From Streptomyces bathyalis (GTDB taxonomy: Bacteria > Actinomycetota > Actinomycetes > Streptomycetales > Streptomycetaceae), in NCBI RefSeq assembly GCF_015910445.1, contig NZ_CP048882.1, forward strand, positions 5,887,501 to 5,951,500: a stretch of DNA of 64,000 bases, in the 5' to 3' direction. Shown piece after piece: positions 4,791-41,832 of the stretch; the stretch's first letter is position 1; each line of letters opens with the position of its first letter. A program made the translations under genes and the position numbers. Under the pieces are notes generated by a model. That model was given only the letters and a program-made list of their open reading frames with translations, had not been told where the DNA came from and made no database searches.

Positions 4791-4923
4791 CGACCGCCTG
4801 TGGCCGGGTGCAGCGAGGGCCGTGCAAGCCTTCGGCGCACCGAGACCTGGTCAAGTGCCCTGTGCCGGGCGGCACCTCAGAAACTCAGAAGCCAATTCCG
4901 GGGCAGTTCAATACAATTGGCCC

Positions 4924-5244
4924 ATGCCTCGGAGAATCATGTACGTGCAGCTCAAGTCGGGTCACGACACCGACGCGGGCCCGTCGTGGATCGCCTGGGT
5001 CCGATTCTCCAAGACCTGGCAGACCGCGTACTTCCGCGGTCGCACGCTGCGTCGTCGGCCGGCCATGCAGGACGCCAACTTCTACGACGTGGACACCGAG
5101 GAGCAGTTCTGGCTCTCCGGCCCGAAACGCGACCGGTTCGACGGCCGGTTCAGCCGCGCCGCGCCGGAGATCGACGACGATGCCCGCGACGCCTACGAGG
5201 CGTTCCTGGGCGGGGCTGCGCTACCGGGACGTGAGCGAGGCTGA
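4924..5244 (+). CDS. conserved small actinobacterial protein
   Basis: A basic-to-acidic protein of about 106 residues begins MPRRIMYVQLKSGHDTD and contains WIAWVRFSKTWQTAYFRGRT and NFYDVDTEEQFWLSGPKRD, ending with an acidic helix and ALPGRERG. I recognise it as a conserved family of unknown function in streptomycetes; the middle stretch with the WLSGPKRDR box is the conserved part. It has no signal peptide, membrane segment or metal motif. The ATG at 4924 has CGGAG just downstream rather than upstream, so ATG 4939, preceded by CGGAG, is an alternative start. It has no obvious operon partner. Confidence 0.75.
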   Translation: MPRRIMYVQLKSGHDTDAGPSWIAWVRFSKTWQTAYFRGRTLRRRPAMQDANFYDVDTEEQFWLSGPKRDRFDGRFSRAAPEIDDDARDAYEAFLGGAALPGRERG

Positions 5245-5377
5245 GTCTTCGGCTCCTGACAACTCCAGCCGTAGACCGACGACTTGCCGCTCACCGGCCC
5301 GATCGGGCCTCGATGTGTCTCGCTGGTCCTGCGACGCGGCGCCGGTCCGAACCGCTTCCTGGCCGAAGCAGCGTCGA

Positions 5378-5720
5378 CCCGTCGGGAATGCACTTCGTGT
5401 ACCTGGCGGACGTGCCCGAGGAGTTCGGCCCGGCGCACCTGGTCTCCGGAAGCACACGGTCGGATCTCCGGCAGTGCCCGACAGGTTCTTCGTCCTGGCT
5501 TCGACAGCGGCAGCCGCTTCCACGACGGCAGCGGAAGCCCTCAGCTGTACGGAGCGCAGGTGTCCGCGGCCGGACCCGCCGGGACCGTGGTCGCCTTCGA
5601 GATCGGGACGCTTCACCGCGGAACGGCCATGACCGCGCAGCGCGGGGCGCGTTGCACCATGCACCTGAACTTCCGCCCTTCCGGACTCCATTGGGGCCAG
5701 CGCCGGGGCCGGCCCATGGC
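5378..5720 (+). pseudogene. phytanoyl-CoA dioxygenase family relic, several frameshifts
   Basis: Three frames must be joined to read the protein: SGMHFVYLADVPEEFGPAHL in the frame of base 5376, HTVGSPAVPDRFF one frame over near 5455-5495, then GTVVAFEIGTLHRGTAMTAQ and RGARCTMHLNFRPS in a third frame to about 5710. The GTLHRG segment is where the distal iron-binding His of the PhyH fold sits, and MHLNFRP matches the strand that carries the 2-oxoglutarate-binding Arg. The N-terminal half, with its HxD motif, is missing, and the C-terminus dissolves after WGQRRGR. It is non-functional as it stands. Bases 5721-5957 show nothing further. Confidence 0.6.
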
Positions 5721-5957
5721 CGCCGCACCACGTGGCGCTGGGGTACGGCAGCCGCCGGCACAGCCGCGTGCACAACCGCGGCGGCTCCGCACCGGGCCGG
5801 CTCCGGGGCCCGGTGGTTGCGCGGTGGGCGGTACGGTCGCTGTGTGCCCGTCTGTGCGGGCGGGAGAGACATTTGCTGTCCGTGTCCACCGACGAGGCCG
5901 CTCGCCGCGTCGTGAGGGACCATCGAAGCTGACGGCCAGGGGCGGGAGGTGAATGAG

Positions 5958-6758
5958 GTGCGAACGGGCGGGGACCCAGACGGCATGGATCCCGACGAGG
6001 CTGAGGACCGGCTAGGGGTGCCGGACGAGGACAACGACACCCGGTGGCGCGGTTTCATGGCTGAGGCGGCCGCTCCGCTGCCGAGCGACACGGTGAACGG
6101 GATGCCGGCGCAGCTCTGCGCCGCATGTGTGCGGCTGCTCCCAGTGACCGGCGGTTCCCTCTCGTTGACCGGGGGAGGGAAACGATCACTGATGACCCTG
6201 TGCGCGAGCGACGACATCGCCGCGCGACTGGCAGAGATCCAGTACACGCTGGGTGAGGGCCCCTGCCACTCTGCCACCGAGATGAGCGCACCTGTCTCCG
6301 CGGTCGATCTGACCGCCGGGCCGGACACGCGGCGGTGGCCGCTCTTCGCCCGTCACGCCGCCGGGGCGGGAGCCGGCTCGGCCTTCTCGTTCCCGATGAG
6401 CCACGGCAGCCATGTACTCGGCACGGTCGACCTGTACAACACCACCCCCAGCACCCTGGAGGAGCCTGATATCCGGCTCGGCATGCGGGCGGCCGATGCC
6501 GTCGGCCTGGCACTCGCGGGTCTCCACGAGGCTCAGCCGTCGGAGGACGAGCAGCCGAGAGTAGCCTGGTGGATAGAGGCTGAGGCCAACCACGAAGAAG
6601 TGCACCGCGCCATCGGGATGCTGATGGTGAGATTCGGTGTGGACGCCGAGGAAGCGATGGCAAGGCTGCGGGCACGCGCATTCTTGCTGGACAAGACCGT
6701 CACCGAATTGGCGAAGGACGTCACCGGCCGCAGGGATGATTTCCGTGCTGGAGATTGA
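5958..6758 (+). CDS. GAF and ANTAR domain-containing protein
   Basis: This protein of about 266 residues has a GAF sensor (about residues 40-190) and a C-terminal ANTAR RNA-binding domain (about 205-260). The GAF part includes LGEGPCHSATEMSAPVSAVD and the strand HVLGTVDLYNTT. The ANTAR part reads VHRAIGMLMVRFGVDAEEAM followed by FLLDKTVTELAKDV. Such proteins sense a small ligand or redox state and act as transcription antiterminators. I chose GTG 5958 because GGGAGG (5944-5949) lies eight bases upstream; GTG 5949 sits inside that site. A second GAF-ANTAR gene follows after 42 bases, probably in the same transcript. Confidence 0.88.
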   Translation: MRTGGDPDGMDPDEAEDRLGVPDEDNDTRWRGFMAEAAAPLPSDTVNGMPAQLCAACVRLLPVTGGSLSLTGGGKRSLMTLCASDDIAARLAEIQYTLGEGPCHSATEMSAPVSAVDLTAGPDTRRWPLFARHAAGAGAGSAFSFPMSHGSHVLGTVDLYNTTPSTLEEPDIRLGMRAADAVGLALAGLHEAQPSEDEQPRVAWWIEAEANHEEVHRAIGMLMVRFGVDAEEAMARLRARAFLLDKTVTELAKDVTGRRDDFRAGD

Positions 6759-6800
6759 GCCCGGCGGCCTTGTCGGTGTACGTGACAGGAGGCATGGAGC

Positions 6801-7547
6801 GTGAGCCGTGAGCGAGAGGTGAGCGAGGCTTTCCTCACCTTGGCGGACACCCTCGTCGAGGACTTCGACCCCCTGTCTCTCTTCCAGCGTCTAGTCGATC
6901 ACTGTGCCGGACTGCTGGATGTTGAGGCGGTGGGCGTGATGATGATCGACGCCCTTGGCCGTCTGCGGACAACGGCCGCCTCCAGCGAGGAGGCGGATTT
7001 CCTCGAGGTGCTGCAACTGCAGAAGAACTCGGGTCCTTGCGTGGACTCCTACCACGAACAGCGTCAGATCAGCGTCCCGGACCTCTCCGCCGAGCGGGAA
7101 CGCTGGCCGGAGGTGGCAGATGCCGCACTGGCCGCCGGCTTCGCGTCGGTCCATACGGTGCCGCTGCGACTGCACGAACACGTCGTCGGTGCAGTCAATC
7201 TTCTCCGCACCGGACGCGGACCGCTCGCCGCGGAGGATCAGCATCTTGCTCAGGCTCTGGCCGATGCCACGATGCTGGCCCTGATGCAGTGGTCGGCGGA
7301 AAAGCATCCGCGGGGAGAGATCGTGATGCGGCTGCAAAGTGTCATCGCCGCGAAGAGCGCCCTGGAGATAGCCAAGGGAATGATCGTCGAGTACGCGGAT
7401 GTCTCGTTCAGCACCGCTGCGCGCATGCTGCGGGACTATGCGACAGAGCAGGGCGTCAGGTTGATCGACGCTGTTCACGGCCTCGTGAACAGCGAACTCG
7501 CACCGGCCGCTGTCGCCGCCGGCTCGGGCAACAGCACATCGCCGTAG
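6801..7547 (+). CDS. GAF and ANTAR domain-containing protein (second copy)
   Basis: This 248-residue protein has the same GAF-plus-ANTAR layout as its upstream neighbour but is clearly diverged. The GAF domain (about residues 10-165) has VGVMMIDALGRLRTTAASSE, NSGPCVDSYHEQRQISVPDL and AVNLLRTGRGPL. The ANTAR domain (about 180-235) reads LQSVIAAKSALEIAKGMIVE and then ARMLRDYATEQGVRLIDAV. The retained Cys in SGPC is common in this subfamily and could be redox- or ligand-sensitive. The GTG start is preceded by AGGAGG at 6787-6792 with ideal spacing. A long hairpin downstream ends the pair. Confidence 0.9.
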   Translation: MSREREVSEAFLTLADTLVEDFDPLSLFQRLVDHCAGLLDVEAVGVMMIDALGRLRTTAASSEEADFLEVLQLQKNSGPCVDSYHEQRQISVPDLSAERERWPEVADAALAAGFASVHTVPLRLHEHVVGAVNLLRTGRGPLAAEDQHLAQALADATMLALMQWSAEKHPRGEIVMRLQSVIAAKSALEIAKGMIVEYADVSFSTAARMLRDYATEQGVRLIDAVHGLVNSELAPAAVAAGSGNSTSP

Positions 7548-7611
7548 GAAAAACCTGGCTTCCCGTTCACGCGGGAGCGTCCGTTCGCTCTCCCGGGCCG
7601 CGCAACGAGGC

Positions 7612-7650
7612 CGTGGGCCGCGCTTCCCTCGCAGGGAGGCGCGGCCCACG
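7612..7650 (+). terminator. long hairpin terminator after the GAF-ANTAR pair
   Basis: A stem CGTGGGCCGCGC (7612-7623) pairs with GCGCGGCCCACG (7639-7650), and TCCCT/AGGGA extends it inward around a small loop. There is no T-run. It separates the plus-strand GAF-ANTAR genes from the minus-strand DUF4349 gene and could serve both strands. Confidence 0.65.
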
Positions 7651-7783
7651 CTGCGTACGGGAGCTGCCCGGGCCGACCTCCCCGGACCGTAGCCGCGCTG
7701 CCTGCTCTCAGCGCGGAGACGGTGGACTCCGAAGGCCCATGGAGCCAGCCGTATCACTGGTCGGTCGCTCGGTCCTCGGTCGC

Positions 7784-8842
7784 TCAGTCGCTCTCCGGTG
7801 GCTTCGCCGCAGCCTTTGCCGGAAACGGTGAGTTGCCGCCGTCGTTCGCGGCCGCAGGGACCGCGGACCCCGGCGAGCGGCGGCGCACGCTCTGCGGCAG
7901 CCGGCCCCGTGCCAGCCGCCAGACCACCAGCAGCACCGCCAGCGCGGCCAGGAACGGCAGCGCCGCACCGATCACCACCGCGACCCAGCGCATCGTCGTG
8001 ATGAAGGCATCCCAGCCGCCCCCCAGCGCGTCCGTGAACCCGGTCCCGTCGTCCTTCTTCTCCACCTCGGTCTCGGAGAGCACGAGCGTGATCGTGGCCA
8101 GCGACGTCCGGTCCTTCAGCGACGCCTGCTGCGCCTGGAGCGCTTCCAGTTCCGCCTGGCGGGTGCTCAACTGGCCTTCCAGAGTGACGATGTCGGAGAG
8201 CTCAGTGGCCTTGTCCATCAGCTTCCGTACGCGTTCGACGCTTGCCTTCTGCGAGGCGACGCGGCTCTCGACGTCCACCACCTTGTCGGTGACGTCGTCG
8301 GCCGACACCTTCCGCTCGATGAGCTTGCCGCTGCCCGAGAGCTCCTCCAGGACGTCCGCGTACTCCTCCTGCGGTACCCGGAGCACCAGACGCGACCGCT
8401 CGTGGCTCTGGCCGTCGCGGTCGGTTGTCTCGTCGCCGACGTAACCGCCCGCGCTCTCCACCGTGGTACGGGTGTCGTCCAGTGCGGACGGTACGTCCTT
8501 GACCTGGACCGTGAGCCTGGCCTTACGGATGACGTGGTCCGGTTCGATCTTCGGTGGCTTCTTACTGGCCGGGCCTTCCTGCTGGCCTGTCGCGTCGTCG
8601 GGGTTGGCGCGCGCCCCGCTGTCGGCCGCCGCTCCCGCGCCTGCCTCGCGCTTCCCGGGTGCGTCGCTCGCGTACTGCCGCTCGCTCGCCGAACTCCCGG
8701 AGTCCGTGGCGGAGTTGGTGCTGCAACCCGCGACGGCCAGCGCCGAGGCGAGCACTCCCACCGCGAGGAGTGCGAGCGACCGGCGCGGACGCCGGCCGGG
8801 ACTGCGACGGTTCCCTGTCGCGGGCGGTGTCGGATCGTTCAT
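7784..8842 (-). CDS. DUF4349 domain-containing lipoprotein
   Basis: This is a 352-residue membrane-anchored envelope protein. The N-terminus has an Arg-rich start, a hydrophobic core and the lipobox LAVAGC at about residues 35-40. A low-complexity Ser/Ala/Gly linker follows. The DUF4349 region (about 100-310) holds IRKARLTVQVKDVPSALDDT, a Glu/Lys-rich coiled coil around SRVASQKASVERVRKLMDKA and a second coil QAELEALQAQQASLKD. It ends in one strong transmembrane helix (WVAVVIGAALPFLAALAVLL) and a basic cytoplasmic tail. The function of DUF4349 is not known to me. The ATG has GGAGGGG upstream, and the gene is monocistronic. Confidence 0.9.
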   Translation of the reverse strand: MNDPTPPATGNRRSPGRRPRRSLALLAVGVLASALAVAGCSTNSATDSGSSASERQYASDAPGKREAGAGAAADSGARANPDDATGQQEGPASKKPPKIEPDHVIRKARLTVQVKDVPSALDDTRTTVESAGGYVGDETTDRDGQSHERSRLVLRVPQEEYADVLEELSGSGKLIERKVSADDVTDKVVDVESRVASQKASVERVRKLMDKATELSDIVTLEGQLSTRQAELEALQAQQASLKDRTSLATITLVLSETEVEKKDDGTGFTDALGGGWDAFITTMRWVAVVIGAALPFLAALAVLLVVWRLARGRLPQSVRRRSPGSAVPAAANDGGNSPFPAKAAAKPPESD

Positions 8843-24332: not shown

Positions 24333-26177
24333 CTACTCGGCCAGCAGCTCCCGCAGTTCACCCACGGCGTCACGGAGCTTCTCCGCGAACGTGTGCATCT
24401 GGTCCGCCACCGTGAGCGGAGTGCTCAGGTAGAGGTTGAAGCGTTCCGGAAGCAGCACGTAGGCGACGCCGATGCAGCGGCTGCTCGTCGAACCGAACCC
24501 GAAGAACTGGATGTTGGTGGACGGCGCGGAGCTGGTGCTCAGATAGTCCTCCCGCATCTTCAGCCAGCCCGCGCTGCGGAACAGCGAGGGCTGCTCGTTC
24601 ACACCGAGCTCCGCGCCGCGGCGGCGCTGGATCAACTCCAGCTCCCACAGGTGCTGTTCGGGAGCCTCGACGGCCTGGCACTCCTTGGCGCGCGTCACGT
24701 GCGCGGTCGCGGCCGCACGGAAGGCGGTGCGCCGCGTCTCCGTGTCCGCCTCCGGGTCATCCATCGCGTCCACGAACGCGCACATCTCCGGGGTCACGAC
24801 TCGCATTGCCTCCGTGCGGCCGTGCTTGTACTGCCGCGTGGCGATCGACTCGTACGTGGCGCCCAGATGGCCCTTGGCGCGCTGGTGGGCGAGCTGGTAG
24901 GCGACCTGCACGAAGGCGTCGGGTGAGACTCCGAGCGCCTTGGCCTGGTTGCTGCCGAAGTCGTCGAAGGAGACGGTGCGCGTCGCGGTGCTCCGTCCGT
25001 ACTCCGCGAACGCCTCGGCGGCCGAACGCACTTGCGCCCGAAGGGTCTCGTCGAGACGGAACTCCACGGGCCGGACCGCCGGTGACCCCTGGGCACGCGC
25101 ACCGGACTGCTCGGAGTGCACCGCCCCCGGAACGGGCAGCAGCGCGTCGACGAAGCTCAGGATCGTGGTGCCGTCCAACTGGCAGTGCTCGACGTTCAGC
25201 CCGGCACGGCCGTCCTCGAAGACGACGAACGAGACGGCCTTGTCGAACCAGCGGTTGCCGCGGTCCCCGTACAGCAGCTCGTCGCACGCCTCCTGGACGC
25301 CGGACGGGGCGAAGTCCTCCAGGCACACGCAGAACAACGCGTCCTCGACGGTGCGGAGGGACTCGGCGTTGCCCGGGTCGAGGTCCAGCAGCGACGCCCG
25401 CGCCCTCGCCCAGTCCGCGCGGGCCATGGTGGTGAGGTGACCGACGGAGGCGCCCGCGCCCGCCGGCTCGGCGCCCGCCTTCATCACCTCTCGCAGCCCC
25501 GCCTCCAGATCCTCGAGGCTGTGCGGAGCACCGCCCTCACCGATGACGTCCATCCGGAAGGTGTTGCCGCGGAAGAACACCAGGATGTGCCGCTCCCGCG
25601 ACGGGCCGGGCCGCTCCGCCGAGTAGGGAGTGCGGGAGGTGTCCTGCTCCACGCCCGGGATGCGCGTGCTGGAGAAGAGGTACTTCAGCTGCTCCATCGA
25701 CTGAGGCTGCCCCCGCTGAACCACGGGCGGGATCAGTTCCTCGTCGATCTGCCGCTTGAAGTCGAGCGCGCCGGCGATGAGCCCCGCCGCCCTCTCCACC
25801 TGCGACTCGTCCGAATCCCTGAAGAGGAAGAAGAAGTTGGCGTTCAGAGCGATCCGGTCGCGTCGCCCCAGATAGCGGTACGGCCAGAACGTGTCGAGCC
25901 AACTGTGCACGCCCTCCGAGGAGTTGTACTCCTCCAGCGCCGCCTGCAGAACCTGCCCCGGGCCGTCGGGGTCGAGGAAGGCCGCCACCTCAGCCTCGGA
26001 CGCGGCGAGTTCACCCGGGGAGAGCAGCGGCGCGCACCAGGCGAGGAGCCTCTCGCAGCTCGCCTCGAGCGTGGGCAGCGGCACGCGCGGCAGCGCGTCC
26101 TCCTGCGCGAAGGTGGGGGTGGTCGTGGCGCTTCCCTGAGGCGCGCTTCCCTGACTGGTGTTCACTTGCGCTTTCAC
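24333..26177 (-). CDS. choline/carnitine O-acyltransferase family protein
   Basis: This 614-residue protein follows the carnitine acyltransferase fold, which exchanges acyl groups between CoA and a hydroxylated quaternary-amine-like acceptor. The opening LPRVPLPTLEASCERLLAW is typical. YLGRRDRIALNANFFFLFRD and RHILVFFRGNTFRMDVIG match the N-domain. The catalytic His is His331 in LNVEHCQLDGTTI. GHLGATYESIATRQYKHGRT followed by EAMRVVTPEM matches the CoA/carnitine-binding GRTExxR motif. Bacterial members are rare. The GTG start overlaps the methyltransferase stop as GTGA; GTG 26165 is an alternative. It is the last gene of a three-gene cassette with a methyltransferase and a 2-oxoglutarate oxygenase. 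Confidence 0.9.
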   Translation of the reverse strand: MKAQVNTSQGSAPQGSATTTPTFAQEDALPRVPLPTLEASCERLLAWCAPLLSPGELAASEAEVAAFLDPDGPGQVLQAALEEYNSSEGVHSWLDTFWPYRYLGRRDRIALNANFFFLFRDSDESQVERAAGLIAGALDFKRQIDEELIPPVVQRGQPQSMEQLKYLFSSTRIPGVEQDTSRTPYSAERPGPSRERHILVFFRGNTFRMDVIGEGGAPHSLEDLEAGLREVMKAGAEPAGAGASVGHLTTMARADWARARASLLDLDPGNAESLRTVEDALFCVCLEDFAPSGVQEACDELLYGDRGNRWFDKAVSFVVFEDGRAGLNVEHCQLDGTTILSFVDALLPVPGAVHSEQSGARAQGSPAVRPVEFRLDETLRAQVRSAAEAFAEYGRSTATRTVSFDDFGSNQAKALGVSPDAFVQVAYQLAHQRAKGHLGATYESIATRQYKHGRTEAMRVVTPEMCAFVDAMDDPEADTETRRTAFRAAATAHVTRAKECQAVEAPEQHLWELELIQRRRGAELGVNEQPSLFRSAGWLKMREDYLSTSSAPSTNIQFFGFGSTSSRCIGVAYVLLPERFNLYLSTPLTVADQMHTFAEKLRDAVGELRELLAE

Positions 26178-27118
26178 TCCGGTTCGTCGGTGGGTGGTGT
26201 GGCGGGGGAGGCCGGTGTCCCGGGCGTGGCCGCGCTCTCCCGCGCGAGCCGTTCCGGGGACCAGGGCCATCCTGCGGTGCCGGACGGACGGGAAAGATAC
26301 AGCCGCGCGTACAGCCAGCCGTCGGCCTCCAGTCCGTCCGCGTCGACTCCGGCTTCCTTCATCGTCTCCAGTACCTGCGTCTGCTCCTGCGGCGAGGCGA
26401 ACCGGCGCTGCCGGAAGACGTCGTCGACGCGGACAGTGCTGTATCCCAGCTCCTCCAGCGCCCGCTCGACGGGGTCGAACGGGAACATGCGCAGCACGAA
26501 GTGCGCCATCCAGGGCAGTTGGCCGCCCGTGGAGCGGACGATACGCGTAAGAGTGCGCTCGGTGACATATCCGATGCAGCCCGTGGAGATGACCAGATCC
26601 GTGCCGGCGAACTGCGCGCGCTGCCGCGGCGACGGCTCGTCATGCTCCAGGTTCGCGTGGACGGCGTCGTCGAGGAACCCCGCTTCGAGGGCGTACGCGA
26701 GCGCACTGCCGGAGGTGTCCAGACCCACGAAGCGGACCGGACGCGCCGGTCTGTGCGACCGTGCCAGCTTGCGGTCGCGGGCCAGCAGCGCCTCGGAGGT
26801 CTCCTCGGCGCGGGCACGGCCACCGGCGCCGGACTCGCCGCCGAGGTGCTCGTCGCAGTAGCGGGCGTAGAGCGCGTCCATCGTCACGTCGTACTTGAGC
26901 AGTGCGGCGTTGATGCCGTACGAGCAGCCGATGTCCAGCACCTTGGGCACCGCCACCTGCCGCGCGTCGCGGTACTCCTCCATGAGCTTGGCGAAGTAGG
27001 GCTTGGCCTGCTGAGGAACGCAGTAGTCGAGCTCGCGCAGCTCCCTGAAGTAGGCACGCGGATCGGGCCTGTTGTAGATGTGGTCGAGCGTGACTTTCCC
27101 GGTGGCGTCGAAGCGCAC
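26174..27118 (-). CDS. class I SAM-dependent methyltransferase of the acyltransferase cassette
   Basis: This is a 314-residue methyltransferase. Motif I is VLDIGCSYGINAALLKYDVT at about residues 60-79, preceded by an unusual N-terminal region VTLDHIYNRPDPRAYFRELR. VRFVGLDTSGSALAYALEAG is motif II, and DLVISTGCIGYVTERTLTRI the post-motif strand and helix. A 30-residue linker rich in Ala/Glu precedes motif II. The C-terminus (RLARESAATPGTPASPATPP) is low complexity. CAGGAGCA precedes the GTG start. Its stop overlaps the acyltransferase start, so the two products are probably made in step. The methyl acceptor may be an amine, oxygen or carbon. Confidence 0.9.
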   Translation of the reverse strand: MRFDATGKVTLDHIYNRPDPRAYFRELRELDYCVPQQAKPYFAKLMEEYRDARQVAVPKVLDIGCSYGINAALLKYDVTMDALYARYCDEHLGGESGAGGRARAEETSEALLARDRKLARSHRPARPVRFVGLDTSGSALAYALEAGFLDDAVHANLEHDEPSPRQRAQFAGTDLVISTGCIGYVTERTLTRIVRSTGGQLPWMAHFVLRMFPFDPVERALEELGYSTVRVDDVFRQRRFASPQEQTQVLETMKEAGVDADGLEADGWLYARLYLSRPSGTAGWPWSPERLARESAATPGTPASPATPPTDEPE

Positions 27119-27237
27119 GGATTGCTCCTGTGGGGGTGGCAGGGTCGCAGGGGTGTACTGGTGGTGCGGCGCGGCATGGGAACCGGTGAGGCCGTCCGGC
27201 AGTGGCGGCCCTCGGCAGCCGGCCGCCCGGCCGGTCG

Positions 27238-28107
27238 CTAGTCGAGCAGCCGGTCGCCGCGCACGGCGCGGCCCTCGGCCTCCAGATGCTCCGGCAGCAC
27301 ACGCCCGAAGAGCTGCCGGGTGCGGGAGACGCTTCCGACGACGCCCGGGCGCTCGCTGTAGGCGAAGATCGCCGAGTGTCGGGCGAAGCCGCCCCGCACG
27401 GGGCTGACGCGGTGCAGGGAGAAGCGGCCCTTGAACAGCTGCAGATCCCCGGGACGCAGAAGCAGGCGGCGCGTCAACTCCTCGCCCCTGCCCTGGAGTA
27501 CGTCACGCACTCCGTCGAAGTTCTCCTCCTGAGCGGTCCGGATGTTGGGGCAGTACTCGAACACCCCGCCCACCTGGGCCTCTTGGGTGAGCATGCTGAC
27601 GGTGAACTCGTTGGTGTCGAAGTGCCAGGGGTGTTCCATCCCGGGCTCGACGACGTTGAGCACCAGTCCGGACAGCGGGTCGGCCAGCTCGTGCAGCTCG
27701 CCGAGTTCGAAGCAGCCCGCGATGAAGCGCTTGAACGTCTCGTCGGAGTAGAGACGGCTGATGAGGGACCCGGCGGGAATCCTGTCGCGGGGGACGAAGG
27801 CGTTGCCGCGCTCGAAGGCCATGCGTCCCGGATGGTCCTCGGGCAGGTCCGGGCCGACGGCCATGTTGTAGACGTTGACCGTGGCGACGTCGAAGTGCGC
27901 CCGGGGCGCCATGTCCGCGCACTCCTGCTGCAGCGTCTCCTGCAGGGAGGGGCGGATGAAGTCCGGCAGTACGGTGCAGCCGTCGGCCAGCAGATCCTCC
28001 CTGGCCCGGGAGAGGACGGCGCGCGCCCCGGCGCTGTCGAGGTCCGTGAGGGGATACCGGTCCGTGTCGACCAGTTCCTCCAGTGTGGTGGCTTCCGAAG
28101 TGCTCAT
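27238..28107 (-). CDS. Fe(II)/2-oxoglutarate-dependent oxygenase, BesD/HalD-like
   Basis: This 289-residue non-heme iron oxygenase is first in the cassette. The metal triad can be followed: His162 and Asp164 in EHPWHFDTNEFTV, and His232 in GRFSLHRVSPVRG; Arg243 in ARHSAIFAYS is the likely 2-oxoglutarate anchor. The stretch GGVFEYCPNIRTAQEENFDG and the GDLQLFKGR element are the features I associate with the BesD/HalD group that acts on free amino acids. Halogenases of that group have Gly instead of Asp in HxD. Here Asp is retained, which predicts hydroxylation rather than chlorination. The ATG follows GAGAGGAT. A 119-base gap leads to the methyltransferase. Confidence 0.87.
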   Translation of the reverse strand: MSTSEATTLEELVDTDRYPLTDLDSAGARAVLSRAREDLLADGCTVLPDFIRPSLQETLQQECADMAPRAHFDVATVNVYNMAVGPDLPEDHPGRMAFERGNAFVPRDRIPAGSLISRLYSDETFKRFIAGCFELGELHELADPLSGLVLNVVEPGMEHPWHFDTNEFTVSMLTQEAQVGGVFEYCPNIRTAQEENFDGVRDVLQGRGEELTRRLLLRPGDLQLFKGRFSLHRVSPVRGGFARHSAIFAYSERPGVVGSVSRTRQLFGRVLPEHLEAEGRAVRGDRLLD

Positions 28108-28600
28108 CCGATCCTCTCCCGCCTGCGGGGCCGGCCGTCCGAGCCGGACGTCCAGGCAGGGTTCGCCGGGCACCTGCCGGCGAAGCTTGGGGGAGCCACC
28201 CGGCACACGCCCGCGCACGGGTCGACGGCAGCCGGCGCGGCCCGCCACCTGACGGGACCTCACACTCGGATCGCAGCAACTCTACTGATGAGTAACGGAG
28301 TTGAAGCTCCCACATCCGCGCCTGCGTGTCTGTGACACGTCACACGGTCGTCACATCGCACGCGGCGAACGAGTACGGATCAGCGTGGTCCGGGGGCGGT
28401 GAGGCGAGCAACACCGGGGGAGGGGAGGCGACTTCGAGAGACGATTGGGGGGCTCCGGGGAGAGGGGAGCTGCGCGGCGCAGCCGGGAACGGACCCGCTG
28501 CCTCACCCAGGGGCGGTGGTCGTCCCCCTGTGTCGCGTGCGGAAGGTCCGTTCCCGGTCGGTCGAACCGGGCGTCGCGCTGAGCTGTCGGTGCGCGGGAC
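28108..28600. other. gene-free region upstream of the oxygenase cassette
   Basis: No gene is supportable in these 490 bases between the cassette start and the end of the solute-binding gene. They contain two dyads: AACTC/GAGTT arms at 28278-28302 around an AT-richer core, and a TGTGAC/GTCACA palindrome at 28331-28344. The cassette promoter is expected here. Confidence 0.5.
28331..28344. promoter_or_regulatory. candidate operator TGTGAC-AC-GTCACA
   Basis: TGTGACACGTCACA is a perfect 6+2+6 inverted repeat 224 bases before the oxygenase start, followed by a further GTCACA half-site at 28350-28355. Spacing is too short for a Crp site; a GntR- or LacI-type factor is possible. Confidence 0.35.
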
Positions 28601-30520: not shown

Positions 30521-31018
30521 CCCGGATTGCCGCCGCGAGTGCTTGCGAATGGCCGCTGAGGAGGGCCGAGGGCGGGTGCGGCGGGAGCCGGGGTGGAGTG
30601 CGGCAGCTGCCGGCGGTGGCGGCGGCGGTCGTGACGTGACGGGGCGGTGGCGGTGACGGGGGCCGTGGTGACAGGGGAGGCGCCTGTGCCGCCTCGCGGT
30701 TGGACGCCTTCGCGGTCGTGATCTTCCGAGTCAGGTGCGGCTCCGCGACAGGGGCGTACTCCGGCGCGTACCGGCGCAGCTGATGCCTTCATGGGATTGT
30801 CCTATTCACTCCGTATGCATCATCTGCCAGATTTCACTCCTTTCGGGGTATGTATCCGGTTCGCTTTCATTGCTGGCAAGAGGCAATGGGCTTCACTCCG
30901 TCAACTGTCCGGTCGGCCCTCCCCTGCCGTGCTCCCAAGCGCGGGCGGGGAGTTGACGATGCCGCGTCCCGTGCGAGTGAGGCCTCCGCCCTGGAATCAT
31001 CTGCGGAGGAGCTGCGTC

Positions 31019-34000
31019 ATGCCCGCACCAACGATCAGTGTCGTTCAACCAACAAGGGCTTCTGCCGGCCAGACCGTCCAACTCACGGGCTCCAACTTCA
31101 CAGGTGCCACTGCCGTGAAGTTCGGCAACACCAATGCCACCTTCACGGTGGTCAACGATGTAAGGATCAACGCCACCGTTCCCGCGGGAAGCGGCACGCT
31201 CCTGATCACCGTGGTCAACCCCAGCGGCACCAGCAACGGCGAGGCGTTCACCTACACCGGGACGCCCGGCGCGAGAATCACGGCCATCAGCCCGGCGGCC
31301 ACCGGACCTACTGCCGGCGGCAACGTGGTCACGCTCGTCGGCTCCGGTTTCACCGGTGTGACTGCCGTGAAGTTCGGAAACATCAACGCCACCAGCTACA
31401 ACGTGGTCGCCTCCACGGTGATCAACAACGTCGTCGTGCCTCCCGGAAACCCCGGTACGGTGCTGGTCACGGTCGTGACCGCCGCCGGGCCGGGCGGCGG
31501 CTTCGCCTACGACTACGTCGGCGTGCCGTCGTCGACGACGACGCTGATCGACGCGCCGGATCCGTCGGTGGTGGGTGAGCCGGTGACGTTCACGGCGACG
31601 GTCGCGCCCGTCCCTCCCAACATGGGCACTCCCACCGGGACGGTCACGTTCAACTTCGGTGACGGCAGTCCGGCGGTTGTCGCGCCGTTGGTCGGTGGTG
31701 TGGCGACGACCTCGCATGCCTACACCACGACCGCAGGCTCTCCCTTCAGTGCCAGCGCCACCTACAGCGGTGACGTCAACTTCACCGGCTCATCCGGTGC
31801 CGCCAGCCACACCGTCAATGCGGCGGCGACGACGACGGCGCTGACTGATGTGCCGGATCCGTCGGTGGTGGGGCAGTCGGTGTCGTTCACGGCGACGGTC
31901 TCGCCTGTCGCTCCTGGTGCGGGCACTCCCACCGGGACGGTCACGTTCAACTTCGGTGACGGCAGTCCGGCGGTTGTCGCGCCGTTGGTCGCTGGTGTGG
32001 CGACGACCTCGCATGCGTATGCGACCACGACGGGTTCGCCGTTCACGATCAGCGCCTCCTACGGGGGTAGCGCCAGCTTCTCTGGCTCTGCGGGGTTGGG
32101 CAGCCATGCGGTGAATGCGGCTGCGACGACAACGGCGTTGACCGATGTGCCCGACCCGTCGGCGGTGGGGCAGTCGGTGAACTTCACGGCGACCGTCTCG
32201 CCTGTCGCTCCGGGCGCGGGGACTCCTACCGGAACCGTCACGTTCAACTTCGGTGACGGCAGTCCCGCGGTTGCGGTGCCGTTGTCCGGTGGTGTGGCGA
32301 CGACCTCGCATGCGTATGCGACGACGACGGGTTCGCCGTTCCCGATCAGTGCGAGCTATGGCGGTAGTGCCAACTTCACGGCCTCGGCGACGGCTCCGGG
32401 TCTGACGCACACGGTCAACCAGGCGGCGACCACAACGGCGTTGACCGATGTGCCCGACCCGTCGGTGGTGGGGCAGTCGGTGAACTTCACGGCGACCGTC
32501 TCGCCGGCTGCTCCGGGTGCGGGGACTCCTACCGGAAGTGTCATTTTCGATTTCGGTGACGGCAACACGTCGGCTCCGGTGCCGTTGGTCGGTGGCGTTG
32601 CCACCACCAGCCACACCTACACCACCACTGCCGGCTCCCCGTTCACGCTCACTGCCACGTACGGCGGCGACTCCAACTTCACCGGGTCGGTGGGGCTGGG
32701 CACCCATGCGGTCAACCAGGCGGCGACGACGACGGCGTTGACGGATGTGCCGGATCCGTCGCTGGTGGGTGAGCCGGTGACGTTCACGGCGACGGTCTCG
32801 CCCGTTGCTCCTGGTGCGGGTACGCCGACGGGGACGGTGGTCTTCGACTTCGGTGACGGCAGTCCAACTGTCCCTGTGCCGCTGGTCGGTGGCGTTGCCA
32901 CCACCAGCCATGCGTACGCCACCACAGTCGGCTCACCGTTCACCGCCTCCGCTGCCTATGGCGGTAGTGCCAACTTCACTGGCTCTGTGGGGTTGGGCAG
33001 TCACTCGGTGAATGCAGCGGCGACGACGACGGCGCTGACTGATGTGCCGGATCCGTCGGTGGTGGGGCAGTCGGTGTCGTTCACGGCGACGGTTTCGCCT
33101 GTCGCTCCGGGTGCGGGTACGCCGACGGGGATGGTCACGTTCAACTTCGGTGACGGCAGTCCGGCGGTTGTGGTGCCGTTGGTCGGTGGTGTGGCGACGA
33201 CTTCGCATGCGTATGCGACGACGACGGGTTCGCCGTTCCCGATCAGTGCGAGCTATGGCGGTAGTGCCAACTTCACGGCCTCGGCGACGGGTCCGGGTCT
33301 GACGCACACGGTCAACCAGGCGGCGACGACAACGGTGTTGACTGATGTGCCGGATCCGTCGGTGGTGGGGCAGTCGGTGTCGTTCACGGCGACGGTTTCG
33401 CCTGTCGCTCCGGGTGCGGGTACGCCGACGGGGATGGTCACGTTCAACTTCGGTGATGGCAGTCCGGTGGTTGTGGTGCCGTTGGTCGGTGGTGTGGCGA
33501 CGACTTCGCATGCGTATGCGACGACGACGGGTTCGCCGTTCCCGATCAGTGCGAGCTATGGCGGTAGTGCCAACTTCACGGCCTCGGCGACGGGTCCGGG
33601 TCTGACGCACACGGTCAACCAGGCGGCGACGACAACGGTGTTGACTGATGTGCCGGATCCGTCGGTGGTGGGGCAGTCGGTGTCGTTCACGGCGACGGTC
33701 TCGGCCTCTGCTCCTGGTGCGGGTACGCCGACGGGGACGGTGGTCTTCGACTTCGGTGACGGCAGTCCAACTGTCCCTGTGCCGCTGGTCGGTGGCGTGG
33801 CGACGACCAGCCACGCGTACACCACGACGACGGGTTCGCCGTTCGCCCTCACTGCTACCTACGGCGGTGACTCCAACTTCACCGGGTCGGCCGGGTTGGG
33901 CACCCATGCGGTCAACCAGGCGGCGACAACGACGGCGTTGACCGATCTGCCGGACCCGTCGGTGGTGGGTGAGCCGGTGACGTTCACCGCCACCGTCTCG

Positions 34001-36907
34001 CCCCTCGCTCCGGGCGCAGGCAGTCCTACCGGAACCGTCACGTTCGACTTCGGTGACGGCAACACCTCCGCCCCGGTGCCGTTGGTCGGTGGTGTGGCCA
34101 CCACCAGCCACGCGTACGCCACCACAGTCGGCTCCCCCTTCGCCCTCACGGCCTCATACAGCGGTGACAGCAACTTCACCGGGTCGGTCGGGCTGGGCAG
34201 CCATGCGGTGAACCAGGCGGCGACGACGACAGCGTTGACCGATCTGCCGGACCCGTCCGTGGTGGGTGAGCCGGTGACGTTCACCGCCACCGTCTCGCCT
34301 GTCGCTCCGGGTGCCGGGACTCCCACCGGAAGCGTCACGTTCAACTTCGGTGACGGCAGTCCCGCGGTTGTGGTGCCGTTGGTTGCCGGTGTGGCGACGA
34401 CCTCGCATGCGTATGCCACGACGACGGGTTCGCCGTTCACGATCAGTGCGAGCTATGGCGGTGACGCCAACTTCACGGGCTCGGCGACGGGTCCGGGTCT
34501 GACGCACACGGTCAATGTGGCGGCGACGACAACGGTGTTGACGGACGTGCCGGACCCATCCGTGGTGGGTGAGCCGGTGACGTTCACCGCCACCGTTGCA
34601 CCGGTCGTTCCGGGTGCGGGTACGCCGACGGGGACGGTGGTCTTCGACTTCGGTGACGGCAGTCCAACTGTCCCTGTGCCGCTGGTCGGTGGCGTGGCGA
34701 CGACCAGCCACGCGTACACGACGACCACGGGTTCGCCGTTCGCTCTGACCGCTACCTACGGCGGTGACTCCAACTTCACGGGTTCCGCGGGGTTGGGCAG
34801 CCATGCGGTGAACCAGGCGGCGACGACGACGGTGTTGACTGATGTGCCGGATCCTTCGGTGGTGGGTGAGCCGGTGACGTTCACCGCGACTGTCTCGGCC
34901 TCTGCTCCGGGTGCGGGTACGCCGACGGGGACGGTGGTGTTCGACTTCGGTGACGGCAACATGTCTGCTCCGGTGGCACTGGTTGCCGGCGTGGCGACGA
35001 CCTCGCATGCGTATGCCACGACGACGGGTTCGCCGTTCGCGCTCACTGCCACGTACAGCGGTGACTCCAACTTCACCGGTTCGGTCGGGTTGGGCAGCCA
35101 TGCGGTGAATCAGGCGGCGACGACGACGGTGTTGACGGATGTGCCGGATCCGTCGGTGGTGGGTGAGCTGGTGACGTTCACCGCGACTGTCTCGGCCTCT
35201 GCTCCGGGTGCCGGGACTCCTACCGGAAGCGTCACGTTCAACTTCGGTGACGGCAGTCCCGCGGTTGTGGTGCCGTTGGTTGCCGGTGTGGCCACCACGA
35301 GTCACGCGTATGCGACCACTGCCGGCTCGCCGTTCGCCCTCACTGCTACCTACGGCGGTGACTCCAACTTCACCGGGTCGGTCGGGTTGGGCAGCCATGC
35401 GGTGAACCAGGCGGCGACGACGACGGCGTTGGCGGATGTTCCGGATCCGTCGGTGGTGGGTGAGCCGGTGACGTTCACGGCGACGGTCTCGGCCTCTGCT
35501 CCGGGTGCGGGTACGCCGACGGGTACGGTGGTGTTCGACTTCGGTGACGGCAACATGTCTGCTCCGGTGGCACTGGTTGCCGGTGTGGCCACCACGAGTC
35601 ACGCGTACGCGACCACGACGGGTTCGCCGTTCGCCCTCAGTGCCACGTACAGCGGCGACGCCAGCTTCACGGGCTCCGTGGGGACGGGCAGTCACACGGT
35701 CGATCCGGCGGAGACGACGACGGCTTTGGCCGACACGCCGGATCCGTCGGTGGTGGGGCAGTCGGTGAGCTTCACGGCGACGGTCTCGGCCTCTGCTCCT
35801 GGTGCGGGTACGCCGACGGGGACGGTGATCTTCGACTTCGGTGACGGCAACATGTCTGCTCCGGTGCCGTTGGTCAGCGGCGTGGCGACCACGAGTCACA
35901 TCTACACCGCCACGGCGGGCTCGCCGCTCGCCCTCACGGCCTCATACAGCGGTGACAGCAACTTCAACGCGTCTGTGGGGTTGGGCAGCCATGCGGTCGA
36001 TCCGGCGGAGACGACGACGGCGTTGACCGATCTACCGGATCCGTCGCTGGTGGGTGAGCCGGTGACGTTCACGGCGACGGTCTCTCCGGTCGCTCCCGGT
36101 GCGGGTACGCCGACGGGCACGGTGATCTTCGACTTCGGTGACGGCAACACGTCGGCTCCGGTGCCGTTGGTCAGTGGTGTCGCTACGACCAGCTACCCGT
36201 ATCCGACAACGGTCGGCTCCCCGTTCACGATCAGCGCCATCTACAGCGGTGACGCCAACTTCACGACCTCGACCACGTCTCCGGGCCTGACCCACACGGT
36301 CAATGTGGCGGCGACGACGACCAGCGTCTTCGACGATCTGCCGGATCCGTCGGTGGTGGGTGAGCCGGTGACCTTCACCGCCCACGTCACGCCGGTCGCT
36401 CCGGGTGCGGGTACGCCGACGGGGACGGTCACCTTCGACTTCGGTGACGGTTCTCCGACGGTGCCGGTGGCGCTGGTCGGTGGTGTCGCCACCACCACGC
36501 ACACGTACACCACGGCGACCGGATCCCCCTTCACGGTCACCGTCACGTATGGAGGTGACAGCAACTTCACCGGGTCCTCCGGTGCGGGCGGCCACACGGT
36601 CAACGCGGCGAATACGGCCACGGTGCTGACGGATCTGCCGGACCCGTCGGTGGTGGGTGTGCCCGTGGCGTTCACTGCGACGGTGTCGGCGGTGCCTCCC
36701 GGCGTGGGCATCCCCACGGGGACGGTCACGTTCGACTTCGGTGACGGCAGTCCGACGGTTGCGGTGCCGCTGGTCCTCGGTGTCGCGGCCACCACGCACA
36801 CCTACACCACAACGGTGGGTTCGCCGTTCTCGCTGACGGCCACGTACGGCGGCAGCGGCAGTTTCACCACCTCCGTGGGGACGGGCAGTCACACCGTGCT
36901 GCTGTGA
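31019..36907 (+). CDS. giant TIG/IPT and Ig-like repeat protein
   Basis: This 1962-residue protein is built only of repeated beta-sandwich domains. Residues 4-85 and 86-170 are two IPT/TIG domains (ISVVQPTRASAGQTVQLTG; ITAISPAATGPTAGGNVVTL). From about residue 172 to the end there are eighteen Ig-like repeats of 97-101 residues, each with DPSVVGEPVTFTATV, a PKD-like FxFGDGS/N strand and a closing ATYxGDSNFTGS...HTVN. There is no signal peptide, sorting motif, transmembrane helix or enzyme domain. Such arrays normally serve adhesion or fibre functions outside the cell, so export must be unconventional or absent. GGAGGAG precedes ATG 31019. A 13-bp hairpin follows the stop. Confidence 0.9.
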   Translation: MPAPTISVVQPTRASAGQTVQLTGSNFTGATAVKFGNTNATFTVVNDVRINATVPAGSGTLLITVVNPSGTSNGEAFTYTGTPGARITAISPAATGPTAGGNVVTLVGSGFTGVTAVKFGNINATSYNVVASTVINNVVVPPGNPGTVLVTVVTAAGPGGGFAYDYVGVPSSTTTLIDAPDPSVVGEPVTFTATVAPVPPNMGTPTGTVTFNFGDGSPAVVAPLVGGVATTSHAYTTTAGSPFSASATYSGDVNFTGSSGAASHTVNAAATTTALTDVPDPSVVGQSVSFTATVSPVAPGAGTPTGTVTFNFGDGSPAVVAPLVAGVATTSHAYATTTGSPFTISASYGGSASFSGSAGLGSHAVNAAATTTALTDVPDPSAVGQSVNFTATVSPVAPGAGTPTGTVTFNFGDGSPAVAVPLSGGVATTSHAYATTTGSPFPISASYGGSANFTASATAPGLTHTVNQAATTTALTDVPDPSVVGQSVNFTATVSPAAPGAGTPTGSVIFDFGDGNTSAPVPLVGGVATTSHTYTTTAGSPFTLTATYGGDSNFTGSVGLGTHAVNQAATTTALTDVPDPSLVGEPVTFTATVSPVAPGAGTPTGTVVFDFGDGSPTVPVPLVGGVATTSHAYATTVGSPFTASAAYGGSANFTGSVGLGSHSVNAAATTTALTDVPDPSVVGQSVSFTATVSPVAPGAGTPTGMVTFNFGDGSPAVVVPLVGGVATTSHAYATTTGSPFPISASYGGSANFTASATGPGLTHTVNQAATTTVLTDVPDPSVVGQSVSFTATVSPVAPGAGTPTGMVTFNFGDGSPVVVVPLVGGVATTSHAYATTTGSPFPISASYGGSANFTASATGPGLTHTVNQAATTTVLTDVPDPSVVGQSVSFTATVSASAPGAGTPTGTVVFDFGDGSPTVPVPLVGGVATTSHAYTTTTGSPFALTATYGGDSNFTGSAGLGTHAVNQAATTTALTDLPDPSVVGEPVTFTATVSPLAPGAGSPTGTVTFDFGDGNTSAPVPLVGGVATTSHAYATTVGSPFALTASYSGDSNFTGSVGLGSHAVNQAATTTALTDLPDPSVVGEPVTFTATVSPVAPGAGTPTGSVTFNFGDGSPAVVVPLVAGVATTSHAYATTTGSPFTISASYGGDANFTGSATGPGLTHTVNVAATTTVLTDVPDPSVVGEPVTFTATVAPVVPGAGTPTGTVVFDFGDGSPTVPVPLVGGVATTSHAYTTTTGSPFALTATYGGDSNFTGSAGLGSHAVNQAATTTVLTDVPDPSVVGEPVTFTATVSASAPGAGTPTGTVVFDFGDGNMSAPVALVAGVATTSHAYATTTGSPFALTATYSGDSNFTGSVGLGSHAVNQAATTTVLTDVPDPSVVGELVTFTATVSASAPGAGTPTGSVTFNFGDGSPAVVVPLVAGVATTSHAYATTAGSPFALTATYGGDSNFTGSVGLGSHAVNQAATTTALADVPDPSVVGEPVTFTATVSASAPGAGTPTGTVVFDFGDGNMSAPVALVAGVATTSHAYATTTGSPFALSATYSGDASFTGSVGTGSHTVDPAETTTALADTPDPSVVGQSVSFTATVSASAPGAGTPTGTVIFDFGDGNMSAPVPLVSGVATTSHIYTATAGSPLALTASYSGDSNFNASVGLGSHAVDPAETTTALTDLPDPSLVGEPVTFTATVSPVAPGAGTPTGTVIFDFGDGNTSAPVPLVSGVATTSYPYPTTVGSPFTISAIYSGDANFTTSTTSPGLTHTVNVAATTTSVFDDLPDPSVVGEPVTFTAHVTPVAPGAGTPTGTVTFDFGDGSPTVPVALVGGVATTTHTYTTATGSPFTVTVTYGGDSNFTGSSGAGGHTVNAANTATVLTDLPDPSVVGVPVAFTATVSAVPPGVGIPTGTVTFDFGDGSPTVAVPLVLGVAATTHTYTTTVGSPFSLTATYGGSGSFTTSVGTGSHTVLL
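31532..36904 (+). repeat. eighteen in-frame repeats of 297-303 bp
   Basis: The tandem units encode the Ig-like domains. Neighbouring copies are close to identical in places: the unit at about 33015-33317 and the next at 33318-33620 differ at only a few bases. Other copies differ in modular blocks (SPxVAPGAGTP versus SASAPGAGTP; GSPAVVVPL versus GNTSAPVPL), which suggests recombination or gene conversion among copies. Confidence 0.9.
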
Positions 36908-41623: not shown

Positions 41624-41832
41624 GAGGCAGTCGGTTCGGCCTGTCCGCCAGACAGGCACGTCGCAAGAGGGAATCCGGTGAGACTCCGGAACTGCCCCGC
41701 AGCGGTGAGTGGGAACGAAAGCCGTCATACGCACTGGGTCCGAGCGGACCCGGGAAGCGACGGCCGGTAGGAGCCGGTCCGTGGATCACGGACACGGCGG
41801 GCCCACGAGTCCGAAGACCTGCCACTGCCCGC
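41624..41832 (+). promoter_or_regulatory. cobalamin (B12) riboswitch upstream of metE
   Basis: The aptamer core reads GAGGGAATCCGGTGAGACTC, CGGAACTGCCCCGCAGCGGT and, near the 3' end, GTCCGAAGACCTGCC, the B12 box. P1 can form between GGCAGT (41626-41631) and ACTGCC (41824-41829). A GC-rich hairpin of the CCGGGGGCACCCCCGG type follows at about 41833-41848 and can act as expression platform. It should switch off the B12-independent enzyme MetE when cobalamin is plentiful. Confidence 0.93.

Follow-up and report, generated by a model that had tools for sequence, protein, structure and literature searches.

What would a bacterium make with an oxygenase, a methyltransferase and a relative of the animal carnitine acyltransferases encoded side by side? 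The question is raised by a locus of Streptomyces bathyalis, whose genome is a single contig of 7.38 Mb. A stretch of 64,000 nucleotides from it (NZ_CP048882.1, positions 5,887,501 to 5,951,500), called the window here, holds on its minus strand three co-directional open reading frames (ORFs), named OXY, MT and CAT in the order in which they are read. In eukaryotes, carnitine is made and acylated through N-methylation, 2-oxoglutarate (2OG)-dependent hydroxylation and O-acylation (TMLH, BBOX, CrAT), and BBOX and TMLH belong to another group of 2OG oxygenases. The cassette seems to offer the same kinds of step, but it differs from the eukaryotic route in the acceptor site of its acyltransferase and in having its genes in one operon. 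The trio is real and conserved and, as far as the literature search shows, undescribed: no described pathway with these three genes was found, as the preliminary description of this DNA had also stated, most subscription journals lying outside the search. Our answer, to which we give a probability of about 0.48, is that the product of the cassette is an ester: a short acyl group on an onium-type, amino-acid-like compound, other than carnitine, that has been hydroxylated and methylated. The genes and their one overlap are as follows.

27,238 to 28,107, minus strand: OXY, an Fe(II)/2OG hydroxylase of the HalD/BesD fold, ATG start, 289 amino acids.
26,174 to 27,118, minus strand: MT, a class I S-adenosylmethionine (SAM)-dependent methyltransferase of a separate family, GTG start, 314 amino acids.
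24,333 to 26,177, minus strand: CAT, a member of the choline/carnitine O-acyltransferase family, GTG start, 614 amino acids.
26,174 to 26,177, minus strand: GTGA, in which the MT stop (TGA) overlaps the CAT start (GTG), from the ORFs and the starts of relatives.

The start codons were fixed by comparison with relatives, and together with the ORFs they confirm the co-directional arrangement and the GTGA overlap described earlier. The 4-base overlap of MT and CAT is found in 14 of 20 loci, OXY and MT are spaced by 119 bases, and the G+C content of the cassette, 0.697, is the same as that of its flanks. None of the three proteins matched NCBIfam, and an Rfam scan found nothing close to the cassette.

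We infer the class of substrate, the order of the steps, methylation of nitrogen over oxygen or sulfur, and the acyl length. The cassette would be a self-contained biosynthetic module in which a small, amino-acid-like compound would be turned by MT into a betaine or another onium, nitrogen being the most likely site of methylation. OXY would then hydroxylate the methylated compound at carbon, and CAT would move a short acyl group from coenzyme A (CoA) onto the new hydroxyl. The product would be an ester resembling acyl-carnitine or acetylcholine, built on an onium alcohol other than carnitine.

The three genes are inherited together. A search with MT in 297 Streptomycetaceae genomes gave matches in 74, of which 20, the window's included, share at least 60% identity and are counted as orthologues; below them lies a gap down to 48%, the cut having been chosen post hoc. 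The order and strand of OXY, MT and CAT are kept in all 19 other loci with an orthologue while the flanks differ, and so the linkage is not due to chance. Four genes flanking the cassette, for a substrate-binding protein (SBP), a TetR protein, an acyl-CoA dehydrogenase and an isocitrate dehydrogenase, were considered as further members and rejected: within the stretch read, all four are present in 2 of the 19 loci, one or two in another 2, and none in 15. A scan of named-species genomes found 416 relatives of CAT, of which the best 80 were analysed. OXY lies upstream of CAT on the same strand in every one of these 80 actinobacterial loci, and MT lies between them in 68 (frameshifted in one, L117). 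The genera include Streptomyces, Wenjunlia, Actinomadura, Nocardia, Saccharopolyspora, Amycolatopsis, Actinokineospora and Frankia, and among these best 80 of 416 the cassettes nearest to the window's are those of Streptomyces abyssalis, S. sp. HNM0575 and S. nanshensis. The check proposed at the outset was co-occurrence of the three families across genomes, and co-occurrence is what these loci show.

The trees of the three proteins also agree (patristic r 0.87-0.90 over 68 taxa), and none of 1000 permutations reached so high a value. MT and CAT are joined in single ORFs of 902 and 904 amino acids in Streptomyces specialis and Candidatus Frankia californiensis, which by the tree may be one fusion event or two. 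The acyltransferase family itself, PF00755, was found in 26 of the 297 Streptomycetaceae genomes, in 5 of 396 genomes sampled across the phylum and in none of 14 control genomes, so the early remark that such enzymes are rare in bacteria is upheld. Beyond the window's own genome, the phylum sample held two full trios, one lone CAT and one short fragment match. The lone CAT (locus L078) is 27% identical and has neither OXY nor MT nearby.

What can CAT acylate? It matches PF00755 over profile positions 1-573 of 574 (E 1.7e-161; 539 bits against a cut-off of 22.3), and among solved structures CrAT and CPT2 are nearest to it. In an alignment to these two, residues H331, D335, K413, D420, Y442 and E443 are invariant in 100 of 100 CAT sequences, a set that includes some genomes twice, and so are T455, E456, Q508, S547-T548-S549, F559 and F561. 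PMC11852590 gives the roles of CrAT H343 (catalytic histidine), D430 and E453 (CoA side) and K419 and K423 (lysines of the CoA 3'-phosphate); by these roles the catalytic histidine (H331) and the CoA-side D420 and E443 are kept in all 100 sequences, as is K413, the equivalent of K423. CAT thus shares with CrAT, CPT2 and choline acetyltransferase its whole-length homology, the catalytic histidine, the CoA-side Asp/Glu, one CoA lysine and the STS motif, and it is unlike the animal acyltransferases in being bacterial and in having OXY as its neighbour.

The acceptor side of the site is different. We take Arg518 of CrAT to bind the carboxylate of carnitine, and its place is held by Gln508 in all 100 CATs, which makes carnitine improbable as the acceptor; the lone CAT of L078 retains an arginine there. 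On these residues carnitine is probably not what CAT acylates. Nor is the signature of choline acetyltransferase present, which is presumably Asn at the 518 position and Val at the 465 position: CAT has Gln508 and Thr455 in 100 of 100. CrAT Met564, which we assume limits acyl length, is replaced by Phe559, which suggests short acyl groups. The aromatic residue at CrAT Phe566, presumably the one facing the onium group, is retained as Phe561. CAT could instead be a true carnitine acyltransferase that buffers acyl-CoA and stands beside unrelated neighbours, as a full-length PF00755 match with its catalytic residues and the kinship with CrAT and CPT2 might suggest. The glutamine at the Arg518 place and the OXY gene upstream in 80 of 80 loci make this very improbable.

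The preliminary description called OXY a BesD/HalD-like Fe/2OG oxygenase, and both sequence and predicted fold agree. It matches PF23169 (HalD) with an E of 1.9e-12 (47.5 bits, cut-off 26), and its structure model (predicted local distance difference test, pLDDT, 91) has HalA, HalB, HalD, BesD or Hydrox chains as its first 41 fold matches in the PDB (Foldseek E 6e-15). With these lysine halogenases and the lysine hydroxylase 'Hydrox' OXY shares the fold and an H-x-W-H stretch, at 14-20% identity. Aligned to HalD, its facial triad H162-x-D164...H232 and its 2OG arginine R243 are invariant in 81 of 81 sequences. A BesD-type halogenase was considered and ruled out, since the iron-binding Asp (D164) is present in all 81 and is not Gly or Ala; judged by its residues, the iron site is of the hydroxylase type (HxD). 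In the lysine enzymes of the BesD group the Asp next to HxD binds the side-chain amine. At this place in the alignment OXY has Thr165 in 80 of 81 sequences and Val in one, which makes free lysine or ornithine an unlikely substrate.

MT belongs to a family of its own. It reaches only sub-threshold scores with the Methyltransf_12, 23 and 25 models, its sequence has no PDB match at E 1 or better, and a profile of 45 MTs found one PDB match, at E 0.11. In its motif DIGCSYG, residues D62, G64, S66, Y67 and G68 are invariant in 68 of 68 sequences, the frameshifted L117 being excluded. The structure model (pLDDT 86) shows the class I methyltransferase fold in generic form (Z up to 12.2).

Clues to the substrate come from relatives of OXY and MT at 31-50% identity. 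OXY relatives without CAT were examined in 15 loci, 4 on plasmids and 11 in phylum genomes. In four of them (L072, L073, L216, L218) an M24 protein of one family is encoded directly downstream; the two that were tested score best with the model of the dimethylsulfoniopropionate (DMSP) lyase DddP, at 330 and 428 bits, below its cut-off of 600. One of these loci also encodes an OpuAC glycine-betaine-binding protein (PF04069, 8.5e-53), and a betaine ATP-binding cassette (ABC) transporter was noted once among the four HalD-like oxygenase loci. MTTB (4.6e-97) is found in one of the 15, five genes on. Such betaine- or DMSP-type loci, which occur on plasmids of Pseudomonadota and also in other classes of the phylum, hold OXY relatives of 36-50% identity beside OpuAC, DddP-like proteins or MTTB; they differ from the cassette in their catabolic context, with no CAT or MT in the plasmid stretches searched, and a CAT search of plasmids gave no match. 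MT relatives on Rhizobium and Roseibium plasmids adjoin DoeA-like or EutA-like genes that score below the model cut-offs. Taken together, these neighbourhoods suggest substrates that are methylated, charged small molecules of the onium kind. The carnitine-like product proposed earlier therefore stands in part: betaine and onium neighbourhoods of some OXY relatives are in keeping with it, while the loss of Arg518 makes carnitine itself unlikely.

Other arrangements were seen near the relatives of MT. After the MT relative in L005 (8871-9641) and L228 (6912-7676) comes a conserved protein, followed by a EutA-like protein; by eye the conserved protein has an HxD...H...R pattern like that of 2OG oxygenases, and it has no Pfam match above cut-off. 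It was tried as kin of OXY and set aside when a comparison with the OXY profile gave nothing. The Streptomyces plasmids L229 and L230 (about 4860-8400) hold in a row another methyltransferase, the same HxD protein and a 2OG-Fe oxygenase whose PF10014 score passes the cut-off in L229 but not in L230, with a LysE-type exporter on the opposite strand. Their methyltransferases, considered as close relatives of MT, proved not to be close to it.

A number of findings weigh against the proposed short-acyl onium ester, and they are taken together here with the other explanations they bear on. To begin with, the fold of MT matches N-, O-, C- and S-methyltransferases equally. The Foldseek list for its model is headed by JHAMT, a carboxyl methyltransferase, and has HvrF at rank 48, which would fit a different scheme: an amino acid hydroxylated by OXY would have its carboxylate esterified by MT, and the neutral methyl ester would receive an acyl group on its hydroxyl from CAT. 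Arg518 would then have been lost because the acceptor has no carboxylate, and its change to Gln in all 100 CATs agrees with this. Yet N-, C- and S-methyltransferases appear in the fold lists at about an equal level, and the scheme leaves the betaine-type neighbours of some OXY relatives unexplained. We regard it as unlikely, if the best of the alternatives.

CAT itself does not keep all of its expected residues. At the place of CrAT K419, a lysine of the CoA phosphate, none of the 100 CATs has Lys, the residue being Ser, Ala, Thr, Gly or Gln. Judged from the alignment, this loss weakens the claim of CrAT-like CoA binding and leaves membership of PF00755 untouched. The preliminary description had pointed to His331 and the CoA residues of the acyltransferase as the place to look for failure: the histidine and K413 held, and the second CoA lysine did not.

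The methyltransferase is also not always present. It is missing between OXY and CAT in 12 of the 80 loci, besides being frameshifted in L117, so OXY-CAT is the fixed core. Among the named MT-less genomes, 11 of 12 hold an unlinked MT relative; in the other, Amycolatopsis anabasis, no MT was found at all. The family draw of 297 genomes has six with CAT and no adjacent MT (G104, G116, G154, G174, G217, G240), all with OXY beside CAT. In one of these, G174 (L195/L196), CAT is split in two frames, possibly through decay or a sequencing error. An unlinked MT relative of 40-42% identity is present in 6 of 6 such genomes, against 48 of 271 without CAT (Fisher p 4e-5) and 2 of 20 with an adjacent MT (Fisher p 1e-4). 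Repeated with an unlinked MT as query, the search matched 75 genomes and gave 6 of 6 against 49 of 271. Both searches scored no more than the top 7 or 8 candidates of each genome, so the background counts of 48 and 49 may be low; the six cassette genomes fell under the same limit. The two samples overlap, at least 3 of the 12 named MT-less genomes being identical to genomes in the family draw. On the CAT tree the MT-less state takes six changes, at least three of them forced, so these events are not fully independent; and because the MT-less lineages are partly one clade, the association with MT in trans may be inflated by kinship. The unlinked genes stand in varied contexts: no general family was found as a common operonic partner in 25 loci, and the palindrome that lies upstream of many cassettes (below) was found at none of them with up to 3 mismatches (17 loci, 15 distinct).

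These observations could mean that the core function lies with OXY and CAT and that tailoring by MT is optional, so that a final product could be made without methylation. The 12 MT-less loci with their six changes, and unlinked MT genes that do not carry the palindrome, speak for this; the MT relative kept elsewhere in 11 of 12 genomes, the 6 of 6 against 48 or 49 of 271, and the existence of MT::CAT fusions speak against it. It seems to us unlikely too, a shade more so than the carboxyl methylation above. We read the pattern, on statistical grounds, as a methyltransferase that is needed but replaceable.

The neighbourhoods of some OXY relatives also weigh against the onium ester. In four of the 15 loci of OXY relatives the next gene is of one family, whose tested member is a formaldehyde-activating enzyme (Fae; PF08714, 1.9e-43). 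The oxygenases of these loci (L220, L221, L223, L224) are HalD-like proteins of other actinobacterial classes that stand directly before the Fae-family genes, an arrangement which suggests a 2OG-dependent demethylase; for this branch, at 31-37% identity to OXY, it points to demethylation over hydroxylation at carbon. OXY might likewise be an oxidative demethylase, in a cassette that remodels or degrades a methylated compound, and the MTTB gene near one OXY relative could be taken the same way. None of the 80 cassette loci, however, covered to at most about 8 kb per side, contains a homologue of Fae, DddP-like protein, MTTB or OpuAC. An acyltransferase moreover requires a stable hydroxyl, and a methyltransferase in the same operon favours synthesis, so we consider demethylation quite improbable.

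The absence of these homologues also counts against an onium ester, since the betaine-type clues are those of the relatives and not of the cassette itself. The same may be said of the surroundings: among the 22 widest neighbour families listed, none is common to most genera. A group of ABC ATPases near the cassette covers 15 loci in three genera and seems to merge two kinds. Two of the 80 loci (L102, L107) encode a betaine-type ABC permease and ATPase downstream of the cassette, and with so few the permease was rejected as a conserved partner.

Is the cassette under its own control? Two elements lie upstream of OXY.

28,331 to 28,344, minus strand: the palindrome TGTGACGTGTCACA, a putative operator, 223 bases upstream of the OXY start.
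28,277 to 28,306, minus strand: CTTCAACTCCGTTACTCATCAGTAGAGTTG, a hairpin- or promoter-like element, 24 bases after the palindrome.

Copies of the palindrome with 2 mismatches or fewer are found in 45 of 81 regions upstream of OXY and in 0 of 405 shuffles. The 45 regions are 43 of the 46 from Streptomycetaceae, one from Actinokineospora and one from Pseudonocardiaceae, and the palindrome is absent upstream of OXY in the Actinomadura, Nocardia and Saccharopolyspora loci. It matches once within the window, and in the whole genome at two exact places and one place with a single mismatch. Among eight relatives searched, five have the exact palindrome once, before OXY, and three have no exact copy. 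From this conservation it is a probable operator. The second element is partly conserved in an alignment of 13 upstream regions, L083, L100 and L102 being the most divergent, and may act as a hairpin or as part of a promoter; a simple sigma-70 scan found no promoter.

The other exact copy of the palindrome in the genome (L231, G000:C1:963026-963039) stands immediately before a gene for a GntR/FCD regulator. This regulator was considered for the cassette and set aside: 13 of 25 cassette genomes have an orthologue of at least 74% identity, and only 2 of these 13 have the palindrome (up to 1 mismatch) beside it. It accompanies the gene in the window's genome and with the two most similar of the 13 orthologues. 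Elsewhere in the window, a cobalamin riboswitch (RF00174, 80.6 bits) was found at 41,633-41,823 on the plus strand, and an ORF of 2038 amino acids at 30,791-36,907, plus strand, is made of many near-identical repeats that resemble cell-surface Ig-like domains.

If the cassette does make a short-acyl onium ester, bacteria would build carnitine- or choline-type esters from one operon, with the acceptor site of the acyltransferase rebuilt, and the cassette would be a test bed for a change of acceptor in this fold. Antibiotic producers that have been studied well would then harbour a further, hidden class of small molecules, and the cassette may escape standard gene-cluster tools because it has no polyketide synthase (PKS), nonribosomal peptide synthetase (NRPS) or conserved transporter. 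We tentatively extend this, with the odds somewhat against it, to several actinobacterial families (Streptomyces, Actinomadura, Nocardia, Saccharopolyspora, Frankia and others), which may make an unseen ester resembling acetylcholine or acetylcarnitine, in which a hydroxylated onium amino acid carries a short acyl group. It would be made on demand from a compact module, with an operator of its own in Streptomycetaceae, and would serve as a signal, a solute or a bioactive compound. More broadly, many soil actinobacteria probably build an acylated small molecule by means of an enzyme related to those that acylate carnitine and choline in animals.

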